This document shows, in pieces, positions 1,208 to 11,906 of a DNA stretch of 22,788 nt. Each line of letters begins with the position of its first letter. The first letter of the stretch is position 1. The stretch comes from a virus. The translations under genes and the position numbers were made by a program. Where the stretch lies: positions 1-22,788 of the IMG/VR virus record IMGVR_UViG_3300027759_000451. One strand, 5' to 3'. Under the pieces are notes generated by a model. The model did no database searches. It was not told where the DNA came from and saw only the letters and a list, made by a program, of their open reading frames with translations.

Positions 1208-2234
1208 TGATTCTTTCCTTCTGTGTTAAGAGACAGGTGATACATGAACATGAAGTAACAGGACATACTGTTGGCTCATCATGCAATTTAAAAGTTCCTT
1301 CATATATATTGCCTAGAACTGCTTCTTTGTTTTTTACATCAAAACATCTTTGAATATTTCCATTATGTGATATAGAAAGATGATTATATCCTGCAGAACA
1401 ATTCCATCCACTAAAATCTAAACCATTACCGTAAAACAAACCCATCTCACTATCAATATTTTTTTCTATTCCTTTATCATCAAATAGAGATATTTTTATC
1501 AATTCAGCATCAGAAATATATTTAGATGATCTTTGTATTTCTTCTAATTGATTAAACATCTTGTTAGTAAATTCTTCATGGATTTTTTTACCAACAAAAA
1601 TTGTTGTGGTATCTTTTTTCTGCGGCGCATTATGCAGGTAAGGTTTCATTTCAAAATATAGACCCTCACTTTCAAATCTATGAAAAAGACCTATACAATA
1701 ATCTATGTCTTGTTCTGTAGGATTCACAACTTTTCTAATTATAATGCCGACACCTTTTTCTTTTAAATATACTGCTTTTTTTATAAAAAGATCTATATCT
1801 GCAAACTCATGGTGAAAACTTGCAACAATAAAACGAGCGTTTGCTCTGTTTGATATCTTTAAAAATTTATCCCACCAAGATAGTGCAGGACTTAGATTTG
1901 TGTTAAGTAATAGATTGTTCTTAATACGAGTATCATCATTACAAAAATTCTTTATAACTTTTGGTAGAAATTTATATGCTGTTGGTTCGCCGCCTGTAAA
2001 TAAGATAGTCAAACTTTCAAATTTTCTTTTGTAGATCTCATCCTTTAAATCATCTATGAATAATGAATAGAAGTTGAAATTTCTAAAAGGATATGTCCCA
2101 GAATGAACTGCTGGCCAGCAATAACTACATGAGTAATTACAGAAATTGCCCAAACTAAAATTGACTAGAAAATTCTTGTTGTCTATCATAATATTGCCAC
2201 CGACCTTGACAATATTTTGTGCTACTTTATTCAT
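1200..2234 (-). CDS. Radical SAM enzyme with C-terminal cysteine-rich domain
   Basis: This protein of 344 residues starts from the ATG at 2234. That ATG forms an ATGA overlap with the gp43 stop; a start 14 codons upstream is open but would run into gp43. The radical SAM CxxxCxxC motif is C32, C36, C39 (NFCNYSCSYCWP). A glycine-rich strand follows (LFTGGEPTAY), a typical SAM-contacting GGEP motif. The C-terminal third has further cysteines (WNCSAG, RCFD, then CPVTSCSCITC), suggesting a SPASM or Twitch-type auxiliary Fe-S domain. Such enzymes usually modify peptides or proteins, but the substrate is not evident. It is co-transcribed with gp43, the small protein and the methyltransferase. Base composition is more AT-rich than gp43. 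Confidence 0.85.
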   Translation of the reverse strand: MNKVAQNIVKVGGNIMIDNKNFLVNFSLGNFCNYSCSYCWPAVHSGTYPFRNFNFYSLFIDDLKDEIYKRKFESLTILFTGGEPTAYKFLPKVIKNFCNDDTRIKNNLLLNTNLSPALSWWDKFLKISNRANARFIVASFHHEFADIDLFIKKAVYLKEKGVGIIIRKVVNPTEQDIDYCIGLFHRFESEGLYFEMKPYLHNAPQKKDTTTIFVGKKIHEEFTNKMFNQLEEIQRSSKYISDAELIKISLFDDKGIEKNIDSEMGLFYGNGLDFSGWNCSAGYNHLSISHNGNIQRCFDVKNKEAVLGNIYEGTFKLHDEPTVCPVTSCSCITCLLTQKERING

Positions 2235-4747
2235 CCAAAGAAACTTTCTAAATTGCTTGTCTTCTCGACTTGCCATCCGATAGCATCGAGAATTGTCTTG
2301 AGTGGTTCGACAAATGATTTTTCATACTGCAAGTCGTAGTCGATATATCTATCCAAACCAAATTGTCTTGGCAAATCGCCTGGACATGCAATCACGTTCT
2401 CCTTCAAAGGATTGGGCATCTTCATATAGCAGAACTTGATCTTGTCACCATTCTTAATTAGAGGATAGCGTGATTCTAGTTTAGAATCCTTGATCAGTTT
2501 GTTGTAGAGCAATGCACCACGGACATGGATCGGCGTTGCTTTGATATATATTTCTGTCTTGCTTTGATACTTCTGCGGATGTTTGACACCTCGTGGGAAA
2601 GCAACTTCCTCGAAAGGCAACTGTCTAAACTCATACTTGAACTTCTCAATGAATGAGATGACTGTGTCCTCGTCCTTTGTCATAATCAGGTTGAGACACT
2701 TCTTAATGTTATCACGGCACGCCTTTGGGGTCGAAGAACGCACTGCCTCGATGCCCGTCATCTTTAACTTTGCTTCTGTATAAGCAACACCTTCATTATT
2801 CCAGACATTGAGGATGTAGCGTTTCTTTGCTGTCCAGATTCCTTTGTCAGCAATTGCTTCACGCTTCATGACCATCTTTTGTTGGAAGGCATTAACATAT
2901 CTGCTAAGAGACTCATAGCAATCAGCAATAAACGGTTCAAACTTATTTTCACAAGCCTTGTCCAAGAACTCGACAATCTCAACAGTCGGTCGTTCTTTAA
3001 TGCCAAGGTGATTGACCAGTTGGTCAAGCGTAATATACATGCTATCCGTATCGCAAGCAATGACATAATCATAGTCCTTCGTCTTAAATAATTTATTGAG
3101 ATATCTGTTCATATCACGTTCCATCCATTTGATGGACAACTGACCAGACAGTGTGATTGATTCTGCTAACTTATCATCAAACCATCTGAACCATTCATTG
3201 GACAATGCACCATAAGCAGAATTCAACTGAATCTTCTTTGCCAACTGCATGTTGTGATGGCGAGCAATGAGTTTGATATTTTCTTCACAAGGATTTGCCT
3301 CTTGCGCTTTCTTTGCCTCGATCATCTTTTCTTTATATACGACTCGGTCGTTATACATCTTGTGCATGAGTTTAGGCAAGAATCCGTCTCGCTCACGCCC
3401 GAACATACAACCAGATCCACAGACAGTCACGTTCTGTTCAAACATATAGTTCTTGATTGCAGAATTGTCTAGGTGACCATTGAGGATCTTCATCACACCT
3501 TCTTCACCAACGATGTCTGGGAGTTGTCCAACATATGTTTCTGGTGAGATGTTATACTGCATGATGAGATGAGGATATAGTGAGTTCAAGTCGAAAGACA
3601 CAACCCAATTATACATGCCAGGTTTTGGTTCCTTGACGAACCCGCCAAGGATAGAATGATCCTTACGAATCTTTGTTGGTTGTGGAACAACTACACGCTG
3701 GTTGATGAGATAGTTATGAATGATAACATCCCACAACTTCACAGAAGTGAAGGCATCTTGATAGTTAACCTTAGCATCATAGGCAATCGCATATACCTGT
3801 TCAATGAACTTCAGTTTATCATCAAGTCGATCAACTAGATCAACGTCTCGGATGTTGTATTCAACAAACTTCTGAAAGTCACGCTTATACAGATCAAACA
3901 AAGAATCATACTCTGAATAATCCATCTTGCGCTCGCCTAGTTCAACAGAACAGATATGGTCGAGGCGATATGATTCCTGGTTCGAGAATGAAAACTTCTT
4001 GTAGAGCGGCATGTAGTCAAGGATTGTAATTCCTACAGGAATATATCCTTTCTGCGTCTGTGTCCCAATCAACACTTCACGTTCTTCGAGCATGTTCCAT
4101 GGCGACAACTTCTTTGCCATCTCAACACCCATGAGGCGCTTGATACGGTTGACGATATACGGAATATCGAAGAACTCAACGTTCCATCCCGTGATAACAT
4201 CTGCATCAATTGAACGCCAGATATCTAAGAACTTTGTGAGGAGAGTAACTTCATCCTTGCATTTTGAATATCTAATGTTAGGATTGCAAGATTCATAGTC
4301 GCCACAACCAAGTGCCCAATACTTGCTGCCAAACTTCATAGTGATTGCTGTAATTTCTTTGTCCGCAGATTCGATTGACGGGAATCCTTCGTCTGCGGCA
4401 ACTTCTATGTCAATATTAAGTTTAGAAATAAGTGATACATCATAGTCAATATCACCGGGATAATAATCATTGATAAAAGGATACAGATGATTAGTGAACC
4501 CGAAGATGTCAAACCCATCAACATCCGTATAACGCTTAACAAAATCCCGAGCGTCAGAAGGGGAAGCAAAATCGATACGATCAACTGGGCGTCCTTGTAG
4601 TGTATGCCATGGCGACTCACCTGTCTTTGAATTCAAGAATAGGTAAGGTTTACATGGAATAGATTGATGGATACGCTTGCCGTTCTCGTAACCACGAAGC
4701 AAGACGTTGTTGAAATGTAGTTGTGCGGATGTATAAAATTTTGTCAT
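2231..4747 (-). CDS. 43: Family B DNA polymerase gp43
   Basis: This is the replicative polymerase with 3'-5' proofreading exonuclease. Exonuclease motifs are NIDIEVA (near residue 117), NVEFFDIPYI (near 194) and YNIRDVD (near 322). Polymerase motifs are SFDLNSLYP (A, near 389), KIQLNSAYG (B, near 520), ACDTDSMY (C, near 569) and a later KKRY; numbers count from the open frame's first codon at 4762. The C-terminus SNLESFFG matches the clamp-binding tail of T4 gp43. I prefer the ATG at 4747 (838 residues) because MTKFYTS aligns with the T4 start MKEFYIS; the codon at 4762 has its AGG directly against it. The length is slightly below T4's about 900, and all catalytic motifs are intact. It is separated from regA by about 15 kb of accessory genes. 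Confidence 0.97.
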   Translation of the reverse strand: MTKFYTSAQLHFNNVLLRGYENGKRIHQSIPCKPYLFLNSKTGESPWHTLQGRPVDRIDFASPSDARDFVKRYTDVDGFDIFGFTNHLYPFINDYYPGDIDYDVSLISKLNIDIEVAADEGFPSIESADKEITAITMKFGSKYWALGCGDYESCNPNIRYSKCKDEVTLLTKFLDIWRSIDADVITGWNVEFFDIPYIVNRIKRLMGVEMAKKLSPWNMLEEREVLIGTQTQKGYIPVGITILDYMPLYKKFSFSNQESYRLDHICSVELGERKMDYSEYDSLFDLYKRDFQKFVEYNIRDVDLVDRLDDKLKFIEQVYAIAYDAKVNYQDAFTSVKLWDVIIHNYLINQRVVVPQPTKIRKDHSILGGFVKEPKPGMYNWVVSFDLNSLYPHLIMQYNISPETYVGQLPDIVGEEGVMKILNGHLDNSAIKNYMFEQNVTVCGSGCMFGRERDGFLPKLMHKMYNDRVVYKEKMIEAKKAQEANPCEENIKLIARHHNMQLAKKIQLNSAYGALSNEWFRWFDDKLAESITLSGQLSIKWMERDMNRYLNKLFKTKDYDYVIACDTDSMYITLDQLVNHLGIKERPTVEIVEFLDKACENKFEPFIADCYESLSRYVNAFQQKMVMKREAIADKGIWTAKKRYILNVWNNEGVAYTEAKLKMTGIEAVRSSTPKACRDNIKKCLNLIMTKDEDTVISFIEKFKYEFRQLPFEEVAFPRGVKHPQKYQSKTEIYIKATPIHVRGALLYNKLIKDSKLESRYPLIKNGDKIKFCYMKMPNPLKENVIACPGDLPRQFGLDRYIDYDLQYEKSFVEPLKTILDAIGWQVEKTSNLESFFG

Positions 4748-4784
4748 GTTGTATACTAACATCCTTTGTATAATAAATCAACTT

Positions 4785-5656: not shown

Positions 5657-6109
5657 ATGGCTGAAGATACTAACTCAGAACACTGGTTAACATCAAAATG
5701 GCGTCCAGCAATGGGCTGGATGTATATGGTTGTCTGCACGATGGATATGGTTGTCTTTCCAATCATATGGTCGATTGCTCAGGTGATCACCAAGCAACCA
5801 ATCACTCAGTGGGACCCATTAACTCTAAGAGGTGCAGGTCTGTTCCATATGGCAATGGGTGCTGTTTTAGGGATTGCTGCATTTGGTAGAACTCAAGAGA
5901 AAGTTGCTGGGGCGTCTGTTGTGACAGTTCCACCACCTTCAAGTCCTTCAACTCCTGACGTAAGTCCTCAACCTGTTTCTGTAGCAACATCAATTGCTTC
6001 TGTGTCCACTGAAGTTCAACCTGTAGTTTCTTCAACTCCTGATCCAACAGAACCTCCTCTAGTGTCATCTAAGATGGCAGAACGCATGGCACGCTTTAAG
6101 AAATCATAA
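5657..6109 (+). CDS. Holin of the GTA-type 3TM family with a Pro/Ser-rich tail
   Basis: This is a 150-residue membrane protein. SKWRPAMGWMYMVVCTMDMVVFPIIW (from about residue 13), followed by a loop with an amphipathic stretch and a second hydrophobic segment ending GAVLGIAAFGRTQEKVAG (to about residue 86), is the pattern of 3TM holins first named from gene transfer agents: WRP..GW near the N-terminus and a G.RT.EK.KG-like end. The remaining 65 residues are Pro/Ser/Thr-rich and end in a basic helix. Holins permeabilise the inner membrane at lysis. An exact late promoter upstream fits late expression. Its stop overlaps the convergent glycosyltransferase stop by 6 bp. No endolysin is next to it. 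Confidence 0.75.
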   Translation: MAEDTNSEHWLTSKWRPAMGWMYMVVCTMDMVVFPIIWSIAQVITKQPITQWDPLTLRGAGLFHMAMGAVLGIAAFGRTQEKVAGASVVTVPPPSSPSTPDVSPQPVSVATSIASVSTEVQPVVSSTPDPTEPPLVSSKMAERMARFKKS

Positions 6110-7117
6110 TGATTTGTGATTTTTAAGATTACTATTTGAGTCAACAAGATTTGCGGCAAACATCCTTGCCGCAAATTCCCATGAATATTTTGTTGCATGA
6201 TCTACACAATCTTGTCTGTTCAACCTCATTGCTTTTGATACAGCATTTCCTAAATTTTCATCCATCACACCTGTCTTGTGTGTTAAGATATCCTTTGGTC
6301 CTGTCACATTATAAGCAGCAACAGGTGTGCCGCAAGCAAGTGCTTCAATGATGACTAATCCGAAAGTATCTGCTTTGCTAGGAAAAACGAAGACATCTGC
6401 ATCTTTATAATACTGTGCAAGCTCTTTACCTTTTTTATATCCAACAAATTCTACTTTCTTATAAAGATCTTTTAGACGTTCTAGATCAGGCCCATCACCA
6501 ACAACAACTTTCTTAAACTGTGTTGAGTTGACATTAATTCTTAAGAAATCTTCAATACTCTTTTCCTTAGATACACGACCCACATAAAGCATCGTCTTTA
6601 TAAATTTACTGTGATCTAATGATGGCGTAAACTGCTCAAGATCAACACCTCGTGTCCACTTAACAAGATTCTTGAATCCACGTTCTGCTAATTCTTTTTC
6701 TAAAGATTCTGTTGCAACCATCACACCAGAACTTGCAGAATGAAACCATTTAAAATACCAGTATGTCATCCATGTAGGTATCTTGAAATAAGCATGAAGG
6801 AATTCAGGAAATTTTGTGTGGTAAGATGTTGTGAACTTCTTGTTGTTCTTGAGGCACCATTTACGAGTTGCAAGCCCGATAGGACCTTCAGTCGCAATAT
6901 GGATATAATCAGGATTATATAGACTCACATTCAATTCTAATTTCTGTTGATTGATATAAGCAAGTTTGATCTCTGAATAGAATGGCATATCAATACACGG
7001 AAAATCATTAGGTGTGATAAACATCACATCTGGGATGTATTCTTTTATCTTCTTTAGTGTAGTGACAACCCCATTGACTTGAGGTTCCCAGGCATCAGTT
7101 GCTATTAATATTCTCAT
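6104..7117 (-). CDS. Glycosyltransferase family 4, Agt/MgtA-like glycolipid synthase
   Basis: This 337-residue GT-B glycosyltransferase starts MRILIATDAWEPQVNGVVTT, the opening of bacterial enzymes that transfer a sugar to diacylglycerol. IHIATEGPIGLATR (73-86), FTTSYHTKFPE (95-105), YVGRVSKEKSIE (178-189), VVGDGP (205-210) and FPSKADTFGLVIIEALACGTP (245-265) cover acceptor and nucleotide-sugar sites; D250 stands where many GT4 enzymes have Glu, as in this subfamily. The family includes Agt, which makes glucosyl- or glucuronosyl-diacylglycerol in phosphate-starved Alphaproteobacteria. The ATG overlaps the stop of the 56-residue gene (ATGA), two genes after a PlcP-like phospholipase, the same pairing seen in bacteria. 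Sugar donor and product are not determined. The 3' end carries a strong hairpin. No phage DNA-glucosylation context is visible. Confidence 0.85.
   Translation of the reverse strand: MRILIATDAWEPQVNGVVTTLKKIKEYIPDVMFITPNDFPCIDMPFYSEIKLAYINQQKLELNVSLYNPDYIHIATEGPIGLATRKWCLKNNKKFTTSYHTKFPEFLHAYFKIPTWMTYWYFKWFHSASSGVMVATESLEKELAERGFKNLVKWTRGVDLEQFTPSLDHSKFIKTMLYVGRVSKEKSIEDFLRINVNSTQFKKVVVGDGPDLERLKDLYKKVEFVGYKKGKELAQYYKDADVFVFPSKADTFGLVIIEALACGTPVAAYNVTGPKDILTHKTGVMDENLGNAVSKAMRLNRQDCVDHATKYSWEFAARMFAANLVDSNSNLKNHKSL
6150..6177. repeat. 11-bp perfect stem inside the glycosyltransferase 3' end
   Basis: ATTTGCGGCAA (6150-6160) and TTGCCGCAAAT (6167-6177) are perfect inverted arms with a 6-nt loop. 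It lies 41 nt past the holin stop on the plus strand and within the last codons (AARMFAANL) of the glycosyltransferase on the minus strand. There is no T-run on either side. It may act as a 3' RNA-stabilising hairpin or weak terminator for the holin message. Confidence 0.55.
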
Positions 7118-7284
7118 GTTTTTTTACATTCAGAAATGACTTTGAAACTGTCAAATTTTAATTTATATTCTAGTGATTGTCTTGCCTTGAGACATTGCTG
7201 TTCTGTCTCAAATCTAATCGAGACACGACCAGGAACGTCGCTTGGATTATTAATGTTAACCGCTAGTATCAATAGTATCCACAT
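7114..7284 (-). CDS. 56-residue exported or membrane-anchored peptide between plcP-like and agt-like genes
   Basis: A short hydrophobic N-terminus (MWILLILAV) is followed by a polar domain with two cysteines (PGRVSIRFETEQQCLKAR near residue 19 and VISECKK at the end), spaced about 22 residues apart and probably able to form a disulfide in the periplasm. The gene overlaps the end of the phospholipase-like gene by 29 nt and the glycosyltransferase start by an ATGA junction, so it belongs to the same operon. Small phage proteins with a hydrophobic start and this F.T.EQC.KAR...C pattern occur in other T4-like marine phages from memory; no function is known. The ATG at 7284 is chosen because the frame is closed further upstream; its ribosome site (GGGA) is distant and weak. 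Confidence 0.65.
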   Translation of the reverse strand: MWILLILAVNINNPSDVPGRVSIRFETEQQCLKARQSLEYKLKFDSFKVISECKKT

Positions 7285-8017
7285 TATCGCTAAGTTCCCA
7301 ATGGATTAATTCAAACATTCCATCTTCATGCTCAACGAGTGCTGTGCAGGATTCTACCCAGTCTCCACAGTTCATATATTCAATATAATTAATTACAGAA
7401 ATATTAGCCTGATGAATATGTCCACAGATGATACCATCAACGTGTTTAATTCTAGCGTAATTCGAGAGAGAATTTTCATAGTTACCTATAAAGTTGACTG
7501 CCTCTTTTACTTTGCCTTTCGCCCACTTTGATAATGACCAATACGGTAGTCTAAAATAAGATCTAATCCAGTGTAGTGCTGTGTTAATATTAAGTAGTGC
7601 AGTATAAGCCCAATCACCGATATGAGATAGCCACTTCATATTCATAGTAACAAGATCAAACTTATCACCATGAATAACGATATATTTCTTACCAGAAACA
7701 GATTTGTAGATCATCTCATTATGAAGTTCAACAGTCCCAAAAGAATGTTCTAAGAACTGTCTCATAAACTCATCATGGTTGCCGGGAATATAATAGACTT
7801 TTGTTCCCTTACGAGCCATACGAAGTATCTTCTGAATGACTGTAGAATGTTCTTGAGGCCAGTACCAACCCTTTTGCAAGCGCCAACCATCAAATATATC
7901 ACCAACAAGAAATAAATTTTCGCATTCTAAATCTTTAAAAAAGGAAAGAAGTTCGTTTGCTTTCGAACCTCTCGTGCCCAGATGTGTGTCTGAGATGAAT
8001 ACGCTTTTAAATTTCAT
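7256..8017 (-). CDS. plcP: PlcP-like metallophosphoesterase (phospholipase C; LpxH superfamily)
   Basis: This is a calcineurin-like phosphoesterase of 253 residues. The metal ligands are all present: SDTHLG (9-14), GDIFDGW (39-45), PGNHDE (78-83), HGDKFD (116-121) and GHIH (199-202). The whole pattern, with WYWPQEHS, NFIGNYE and CGDWVESCTALVEHEDG, is that of the homologues often annotated UDP-2,3-diacylglucosamine hydrolase, among which Sinorhizobium PlcP is a phospholipase C that removes phosphorylated head groups from phospholipids to give diacylglycerol. True LpxH is less likely because the next enzyme is an Agt-like glycosyltransferase and no other lipid A gene is present. I choose the ATG at 8017 (GGAG 8 nt before) over a longer frame from 8035, since a late-promoter motif would start the RNA near 8030. 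Confidence 0.85.
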   Translation of the reverse strand: MKFKSVFISDTHLGTRGSKANELLSFFKDLECENLFLVGDIFDGWRLQKGWYWPQEHSTVIQKILRMARKGTKVYYIPGNHDEFMRQFLEHSFGTVELHNEMIYKSVSGKKYIVIHGDKFDLVTMNMKWLSHIGDWAYTALLNINTALHWIRSYFRLPYWSLSKWAKGKVKEAVNFIGNYENSLSNYARIKHVDGIICGHIHQANISVINYIEYMNCGDWVESCTALVEHEDGMFELIHWELSDNVDTIDTSG

Positions 8018-8033: not shown

Positions 8034-8049
8034 AATATTTATAAATATT
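8034..8049. promoter_or_regulatory. Palindromic, bidirectional late promoter
   Basis: AATATTTATAAATATT is a perfect 16-bp palindrome that contains TATAAATA on both strands (plus 8040-8047; minus 8043-8036). The plus copy faces the 8123-9920 operon. The minus copy faces the plcP-like operon and would place the RNA start about 12 nt before its ATG. A weak sigma70-like TTGACT also lies on the plus strand near 8067, without a convincing -10. Confidence 0.7.
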
Positions 8050-10870: not shown

Positions 10871-10956
10871 CCAAAAATATCAAGAAGAATGATAAAAAAA
10901 ATAGTGAGAATTGGTATCCAATTCATCAGTAGTAAATATCCTATGCCTTGTATCAT
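10867..10956 (-). CDS. 29-residue hydrophobic membrane peptide
   Basis: This short frame is almost entirely a membrane helix (GYLLLMNWIPILTIFFIILLDIF). The ATG overlaps the radical SAM stop (ATGA), which argues that it is translated. Its TGA lies inside the -35 element of the next promoter. Such mini-membrane peptides are often missed by gene finders. The role is unknown. Confidence 0.45.
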   Translation of the reverse strand: MIQGIGYLLLMNWIPILTIFFIILLDIFG

Positions 10957-11906
10957 TTGAACTGTGACTCGAATAAGTTATTGTCTTTCCCGCAGAACTT
11001 AGAACATACGAGAGGTTTACCTTCTTTAATAGAATTTAACTTCCATCTTTTTTCTAAATCATAGAAGTAATCTGTATTCATTATTTCTTTAATAGAATAT
11101 TTTTTTAAATTTATTTTATCAATATCAAACATTGAAGAGTTTTTATATATCTCACCACCAATCCAACAACAAGGAAATAACAATCCTTGTGCACTAATAT
11201 ATATTTCTTTTAATTCTTTAACTCTACAATTAATTTCTATAGAATCAAAATATTCATTGTCTTTAACAAGCACTTTAGTATTTTCATTAAAGTGCTTTTT
11301 AGGTGGTTTAATGTTTATGTCTTTAAATTTTTCAAACCTGTAGGTTTTCTTTAATCTAAAATCTTCAAATCCTAATTGTTTTGATAATTCTCTTGCCTGT
11401 TCAATTTGGTGTTCATTGTGTTCAAAAACTATAAAGTCCCATCTTGCTTTTCCTCCATGATCAATGAAAGTTTTAGCTGAAGATATTACACGGTCCCAAT
11501 TGACACCTACTCTATAGATATGATTTGTATCTTCTAATCCATCAATGCCAAAAACAATATAAGAATGCCCATCATCTAAAAGGCTTGCTAAGTCAATCCA
11601 AAAATCTGAATTTCTAGCACCTGCATTTGTATTGATGCTTATTTGAATTTTTGGATTTGTATATTTAAAATATTCTACAATCTCAATGCAATCTTTAGCA
11701 ACAATAGGTTCGCCAAAATTTCCACATAATGTTATATTTTTTAATTCTTTGATAAATTCTTTTGGAAAAATGTTTTTAATATCTTGTATTGAAAGTTCAG
11801 AATTTGTTAACAGTTTATTTCCTGTCCTAATACACATAGGACAGGATGCTTGGCATTTTTCTGTCAATTCAAGATGAATAGATTTTATTTCTTCATACTT
11901 ATACAT
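10953..11906 (-). CDS. Radical SAM protein with C-terminal cysteine motifs
   Basis: This 317-residue protein has an N-terminal CxxxCxxC: C18, C22, C25 in EKCQASCPMC. The partial TIM barrel continues with LCGNFGEPIV (SAM contact), SINTNAG and FGIDGLEDTNHIYR. The C-terminal part has EINCRV, LFPCCWIGG and CSKFCG, consistent with a SPASM/Twitch-like auxiliary cluster. It is a different paralogue from the enzyme at 1200-2234. The ribosome site AGGA begins at the last base of the upstream tRNA's CCA, and the start is 6 nt later, so tRNA processing and translation of this gene may compete. The DNA is markedly AT-rich. Substrate unknown; possible partners are the methyltransferase upstream and the Fe-S carrier at 8.5 kb. 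Confidence 0.85.
   Translation of the reverse strand: MYKYEEIKSIHLELTEKCQASCPMCIRTGNKLLTNSELSIQDIKNIFPKEFIKELKNITLCGNFGEPIVAKDCIEIVEYFKYTNPKIQISINTNAGARNSDFWIDLASLLDDGHSYIVFGIDGLEDTNHIYRVGVNWDRVISSAKTFIDHGGKARWDFIVFEHNEHQIEQARELSKQLGFEDFRLKKTYRFEKFKDINIKPPKKHFNENTKVLVKDNEYFDSIEINCRVKELKEIYISAQGLLFPCCWIGGEIYKNSSMFDIDKINLKKYSIKEIMNTDYFYDLEKRWKLNSIKEGKPLVCSKFCGKDNNLFESQFK

Follow-up and report, generated by a model that had tools for sequence, protein, structure and literature searches.

A phage-borne PlcP–Agt-like gene module that may free phosphate from host membrane lipids

A three-gene operon in a T4-type phage fragment

The stretch of DNA analyzed here, referred to as the window, is the 22,788-base IMG/VR virus record IMGVR_UViG_3300027759_000451 (positions 1–22,788). 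Its gene content is in part of T4 type. Specifically, the window encodes a DNA polymerase gp43 (2231–4762) that is ~51% identical to cyanophage polymerases, a RegA recognized by PF01818, and clamp and clamp-loader homologues that lie close to its right end and were judged from their translations. An Rfam search returned two tRNAs and no other RNAs.

The operon of interest occupies the minus strand and consists of three overlapping frames, in agreement with the coordinates and gene order of a first-pass annotation. The first gene (7256–8017) encodes a plcP-like metallophosphoesterase of 253 aa, hereafter PE, which matches Metallophos (PF00149, E 9e-15) and begins at an ATG codon with GGAG ahead of it. 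This is followed by a gene for a small protein of 56 aa, SP (7114–7284), so far found as a partner of plcP in viruses only, and by an agt-like gene (6104–7117) for a predicted GT4 diacylglycerol glycosyltransferase of 337 aa, GT (PF00534, E 1e-24; PF13439). The PE and SP frames overlap by 29 bp, and the SP stop and GT start share the tetranucleotide ATGA, a 4-bp overlap; because of these overlaps, translation of PE, SP and GT is likely to be coupled. Upstream of the operon, 26 bp before the plcP ATG, lies the T4-type late-promoter-like motif TATAAATA (8036–8043, minus strand). At the other end, a holin-like ORF on the plus strand (5657–6109; PF11351, E 2e-6; phrog_3427, E 2e-10) converges with the operon and overlaps the end of GT by 6 bp. 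The convergent holin noted previously is thus confirmed, and it is probably a neighbor outside the pathway.

Judged from sequence, the PE-(SP)-GT arrangement is more than chance, because dozens of separate virus contigs show the same order and dN is clearly lower than dS between relatives. Several other genes of the window are recorded here as side observations. An A-type Fe–S carrier gene (PF01521; 8547–8855) is also found close to the plcP cassette at four other viral loci (L246, L247, L261 and L277). Look-alikes of a multi-helix Bax1-I membrane protein (PF01027; 14961–15662) occur near phage plcP in L006 and L159, and two radical-SAM proteins (1200–2276 and 10953–11906) score under every NCBIfam cut-off.

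PE is a PlcP-type enzyme rather than LpxH

PE has the complete set of seven metal ligands (D10, H12, D40, N80, H116, H200 and H202, in the motif D-x-H / GD / GNH[D/E] / H / GHxH), and these residues, along with H81, are invariant in 54/54 aligned viral and bacterial homologues (PE and 53 relatives). In all 54 sequences the GNHD segment (N80-H81-D82 in PE) has a His where LpxH has an Arg. Among metallophosphoesterases, this replacement of the catalytic-site His by Arg (Arg80, GNRD) is found only in LpxH (Okada et al., PMC5016852). The LpxH equivalog models of NCBIfam are the closest curated models to PE, yet its scores of 56.1 and 45.2 bits fall far short of their cut-offs of 134 and 190, and bacterial PlcP-like homologues match the same models too.

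Sequence identity and phylogeny point in the same direction. PE is 48–58% identical to alphaproteobacterial homologues (55% to a Pelagibacteraceae (SAR11) homologue and 54% to one from Rhizobium) versus 24% over 120 aa for E. coli LpxH. In the tree, PE groups with the alphaproteobacterial PlcP-like homologues, SAR11 included, and E. coli LpxH lies far out; this grouping was judged against bacterial homologues linked to a Pho box and to agt, with the characterized PlcPs of S. meliloti, MED193 and HTCC7211 standing outside the comparison. An AlphaFold model of PE (pLDDT 82) resembles LpxH structures with their helical insert, a kinship at the level of the fold only. An LpxH identity for PE was ruled out by the His in place of Arg, the scores below cut-off and the distance from LpxH. 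The assignment of PE as a PlcP-type metallophosphoesterase is well supported, and the enzyme is predicted to act as a phospholipase C, Mn-dependent in the PlcP family, that splits phosphatidylglycerol or phosphatidylethanolamine into diacylglycerol and a head group still bearing its phosphate. The proposal of a PlcP homologue with a full set of metal ligands is accordingly borne out by the alignment, and a grouping with true LpxH was not found as far as sequence allows. In databases, the phage genes are called lpxH, which files them under LPS synthesis and makes them easy to overlook.

GT carries the essential residues of the Agt/GTcp clade

For the GTcp enzyme of HTCC7211, a catalytic dyad (His104–Asp256), a set of donor-site residues (Gly16, Gly82, Gly85, Arg190, Lys195, Thr257, Phe258, Gly259 and Glu264) and a diacylglycerol site (His104, Arg163 and Trp320) have been described, and mutating these residues abolishes or nearly abolishes activity (PMC8231724). 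Alignment with Pelagibacteraceae homologues, which reproduce the GTcp numbering at every essential site and served as a bridge, revealed that the window GT carries all of them, including the clade-typical Asp256. In the numbering of the window GT these are H100, D250, G16, G78, G81, R181, K186, T251, F252, G253, E258, R156 and W313.

GT is 43.6–44.6% identical to glycosyltransferases of Labrenzia and Pelagibacteraceae (44.6% for the latter) and 43–49% identical to the bacterial Agt clade as a whole, as compared to the <25% reported between the Agt/GTcp clade and other GT4 enzymes (PMC8231724). Membership of GT in the Agt/GTcp clade of GT4 is well supported by these data. The earlier call of an Agt-type glycosyltransferase stands, and no grouping with non-lipid enzymes was seen to the extent that sequence can tell. 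The nearest GT matches in deposited phage records, from Acinetobacter "phage" MD-2021a, were set aside; they sit among chromosomal genes and belong to no phage operon.

SP is strictly linked to plcP

In an IMG/VR profile search with an SP alignment, the best 80 viral loci were taken, and PE was found directly upstream of SP in every one of them (80/80), with GT4 also downstream in 50. SP was absent from 289 genomes sampled from the class to which a Pelagibacteraceae genome belongs, in a search run without a positive bacterial control, and the bacterial plcP loci examined had no SP either. Residues C31 and C53 are invariant in 43 SP sequences.

AlphaFold predicts a compact beta-beta-alpha-beta fold for SP in which residues 2–10 form a strand (best pLDDT 89; three of the five models 65–72), and a fold search gave no significant match, the best being PurS at E 0.17. 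The N-terminus has no basic residue and only ~9 hydrophobic residues. SP had previously been described as an exported peptide, which is rendered doubtful, if not decisively so, because the protein is predicted to be a compact domain that lacks an N-terminal basic residue. SP is probably an accessory of PlcP, since the two genes are strictly linked, and as a phage-specific protein it could offer a handle on PlcP control.

The bacterial plcP–agt pair

A profile search of bacterial genome contigs with the viral PE alignment yielded 80 loci, mostly from Alphaproteobacteria. A GT4 homologue lies directly downstream of plcP in 55/80, including 8/8 from Pelagibacteraceae, which matches the plcP–agt arrangement described for phosphate-starved marine bacteria (PMC4796936) and upholds the earlier comparison of the window pair with phosphate-starved Alphaproteobacteria. 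The SAR11 PlcP has already been used to complement a plcP deletion in Phaeobacter sp. MED193 (PMC4796936). A canonical Pho box was found upstream of 31/63 bacterial homologues at p ≤ 0.05 (Fisher P 1e-36); this strong enrichment supports the view that the family to which PE belongs is the phosphate-regulated one.

Modular forms of the cassette among phages

Profile searches of IMG/VR gave at least hundreds of candidate viral plcP loci. A set of 195 viral PE loci was reduced to 104 non-redundant loci at 90% identity, some of which had been chosen for SP, so that the following fractions are biased. The next gene after plcP is a GT4 in 54 of the 104, a GT2 in 20 and another gene in 28, and the contig is cut in 2. 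The pair proposed from the window is thus present in many other aquatic phages, and 28/104 loci have no recognized glycosyltransferase next to plcP. The GT2 proteins (~238 aa) score on Glycos_transf_2 and Glyco_transf_21, and it is a guess that they likewise use diacylglycerol. GT2 takes the place of GT4 directly after plcP-SP, with the same overlap, in L186, L195, L202, L210, L242, L250, L285 and others. A further observation is a 356-aa protein (MLSVHQEWDPLKVCVVGKNYPPEF...) with no Pfam or NCBIfam match, which stands after or close downstream of plcP instead of a glycosyltransferase in L012, L013, L014, L041 and L139.

In a quick tree in which some forks are open, the viral PE sequences fall into deep, separate clades. 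Values of dN are far below dS in PE, GT and SP (for PE of the window versus L006, dN 0.13 and dS 1.6), which shows purifying selection at the sequence level on all three genes. Among isolates, Pelagibacter phage Mosig has a PE (50% identity) without GT, annotated in its record as a UDP-2,3-diacylglucosamine hydrolase, and a pstS divergent from plcP. The genome announcement of Mosig makes no mention of lipid or phosphate genes, and a Lake Baikal viral metatranscriptome lists one lpxH match in a table without comment. In the open PMC literature, to which our search was confined (subscription papers and preprints fell outside its scope), we found no description of plcP/agt in phages. What appear to be new are the phage carrier, the extra 56-aa gene and the modular forms; the enzymes are already known.

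Phosphate links in related phages and regulation of the window copy

A gene for PstS was found in the flanks of 11/104 viral plcP loci, beside plcP in Mosig and near it in L046; the L046 protein matches TIGR02136 at E 2e-42, yet falls under that model's own cut-off. At L273, the gene row reads phosphate-selective porin O/P, plcP, SP, GT4 and UDP-glucose dehydrogenase. Genes of the UDP-glucose dehydrogenase family also lie near plcP in L186, L195 and L278, where they could serve as a source of UDP-glucuronate.

With respect to regulation, the canonical CTGTCAT pair, chosen beforehand, was detected at 13/105 viral loci at p ≤ 0.05, a modest enrichment (Fisher P 0.0015). In 26/105 viral loci, the 100 bp ahead of plcP contain Pho-box-like repeats that recur in tandem every 11 bp and follow the pattern T[GT]T[AC]A[CT]; the remainder of these loci would predict 0.18. 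This comparison is post hoc, with a pattern refined on the data and loci that share ancestry, so that its P value should not be read at face value. Control periods of 9, 10, 12 and 13 gave 0–1 loci in the same upstream regions. The same kind of repeat precedes a SAR11 plcP (L092), where it reads TTTAACAAATTTGTAAC. A stricter version of the repeat occurs 0–5 times per whole phage record, and in three phage records repeats lie immediately ahead of plcP and of pstS alike (L230 in G006, 236 kb; L250 in G010; L240 in G307; 30–349 kb). Shared repeats of this type at plcP and pstS in one phage make for a candidate phage Pho regulon. The intergenic region between pstS and plcP in Mosig (L002) contains several TTAACA repeats that resemble the element upstream of the SAR11 plcP and depart from the 11-bp pattern in its exact form.

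The window copy has neither a Pho box nor a Pho-box-like 11-bp repeat upstream of plcP, and no pstS was seen within the 22.8 kb of the window; for these reasons, we infer its phosphate purpose from its relatives. The late-promoter motif had been taken to favor a late role. It does lie close to the plcP start, and NATAAATA precedes 21/105 viral plcP genes against 1.1 expected. Within the window itself, the three occurrences of TATAAATA compare with 2.07 expected, and 34% of shuffles reach three, a frequency that is not above chance and was rejected as proof of late expression. Between 5.5 and 8.7 kb of the window, sigma-70 promoters are fewer than in shuffles. Late expression of the window operon is possible.

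Proposed pathway and alternative readings

Taken together, we consider it probable that the three genes constitute a phage-borne lipid-remodeling module through which phosphate is drawn from the phospholipids of the host. By analogy with its family, PlcP would work on the cytoplasmic side of the host's inner membrane, where it would cleave phosphatidylglycerol and phosphatidylethanolamine to yield diacylglycerol and a phosphorylated head group. The Agt-like GT4 would then transfer glucose, galactose or glucuronate from a UDP-sugar to the diacylglycerol, as suggested by its family and conserved residues. In this way diacylglycerol would be removed, and the resulting phosphate-free glycolipid would keep the bilayer intact. 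The net gain would be phosphate that a phage in a phosphate-poor cell could put into DNA synthesis; an extra phosphatase or a reuse step would be needed to obtain free phosphate, as PlcP releases a phosphorylated head group. Counting against such a module are the lack of a Pho-box-like repeat and of a pstS in the window, the assignment of function by homology, the 28/104 loci that have no recognized glycosyltransferase and the presence of plcP without GT in Mosig. With respect to the original interpretation of the locus, the PlcP and Agt identities and the bacterial synteny have held, and phosphate links have been added from relatives; export of SP and a specifically late or lysis-linked role have not found support.

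A role of this last kind would have the same enzymes alter the membrane late in infection, through surface charge, superinfection exclusion, or protection or softening before holin lysis, rather than release phosphate. TATAAATA 26 bp before the window plcP, NATAAATA before 21/105 viral plcP genes, the adjoining holin and the lack of a Pho-box-like repeat at the window copy would all suit it. We nonetheless regard it as unlikely, given that the cassette in relatives is accompanied by pstS, a phosphate porin and Pho-box-like repeats, and that the holin is convergent and not co-transcribed. We hold as very improbable a module that alters lipid A or O-antigen, in which PE would belong to the LpxH type or be another metallophosphoesterase and GT would be a glycosyltransferase for LPS or the cell surface: LpxH enzymes are indeed the best solved structural relatives of PE, databases label the phage homologues UDP-2,3-diacylglucosamine hydrolase and GT4 is a broad family, yet the LpxH scores (56 and 45 bits versus cut-offs of 134 and 190), the His at the diagnostic Arg position in 54/54 sequences, the distant placement of E. 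coli LpxH (24% over 120 aa) and the 43–49% identity of GT to the Agt clade (reported <25% to other GT4) all speak against it. Finally, transient host genes do occur in phages as a matter of general knowledge, and the biochemically characterized relatives are all bacterial, but a host gene pair that is carried along passively or is in decay, without function, is scarcely credible in view of the intact reading frames, dN values of PE, GT and SP that lie far under dS, viral clades with a long separate history and a partner gene, SP, not seen in bacteria.

Building from the phosphate-freeing module, a broader proposal can be made, for and against which the chances seem to us evenly balanced. Here, a widespread modular phage system would consist of PlcP, the phage-only modulator SP and an interchangeable sugar transferase of GT4 or GT2 type, and in some phages also of a UDP-glucuronate supply of its own and a phage-borne Pho regulon in which the same tandem repeats precede pstS and plcP. 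During infection it would turn phospholipids of the host membrane into glycolipids and make that membrane a phosphate store for viral DNA. In lakes and in large parts of the ocean, phage production is limited by phosphate, and it is known that phages raise the phosphate uptake of their hosts. Mining of membrane phospholipids would, if the proposal is true, be a second phosphate route in which glycolipid replacement lets the cell survive until lysis, and viruses would thereby act directly on the lipids of microbes and on the cycling of phosphorus.

Comparison with known systems

The likeness of PE to LpxH lies in the calcineurin-like fold with its inserted helical region, LpxH structures being its best solved structural relatives. 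PE differs in having His for the LpxH-specific Arg and in scores far under the family cut-offs.

Phages carry auxiliary genes for phosphate, with pstS, phoH and similar genes known from cyanophages and pelagiphages. Common ground with these is that the module is phage-borne, occurs in T4-like and larger phages and apparently serves phosphate supply; moreover, pstS adjoins plcP in several relatives. Unlike genes for uptake, the lipid module would tap phosphate stored in the membrane, and it would do so by a two-enzyme pathway.

The closest parallel described is the bacterial PlcP–Agt (GTcp) operon of Ca. Pelagibacter HTCC7211 (PB7211_983/PB7211_960; PMC4796936, PMC8231724), with which the window has in common the gene order and the two enzyme families, along with every metal ligand and each GTcp residue essential for activity. 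In contrast to the bacterial operon, the window version is phage-borne, has tightly overlapping genes with an extra 56-aa gene between them and lacks a Pho box, and some phages depart further from the bacterial form by using a GT2 for the GT4 or by adding a UDP-glucose dehydrogenase.
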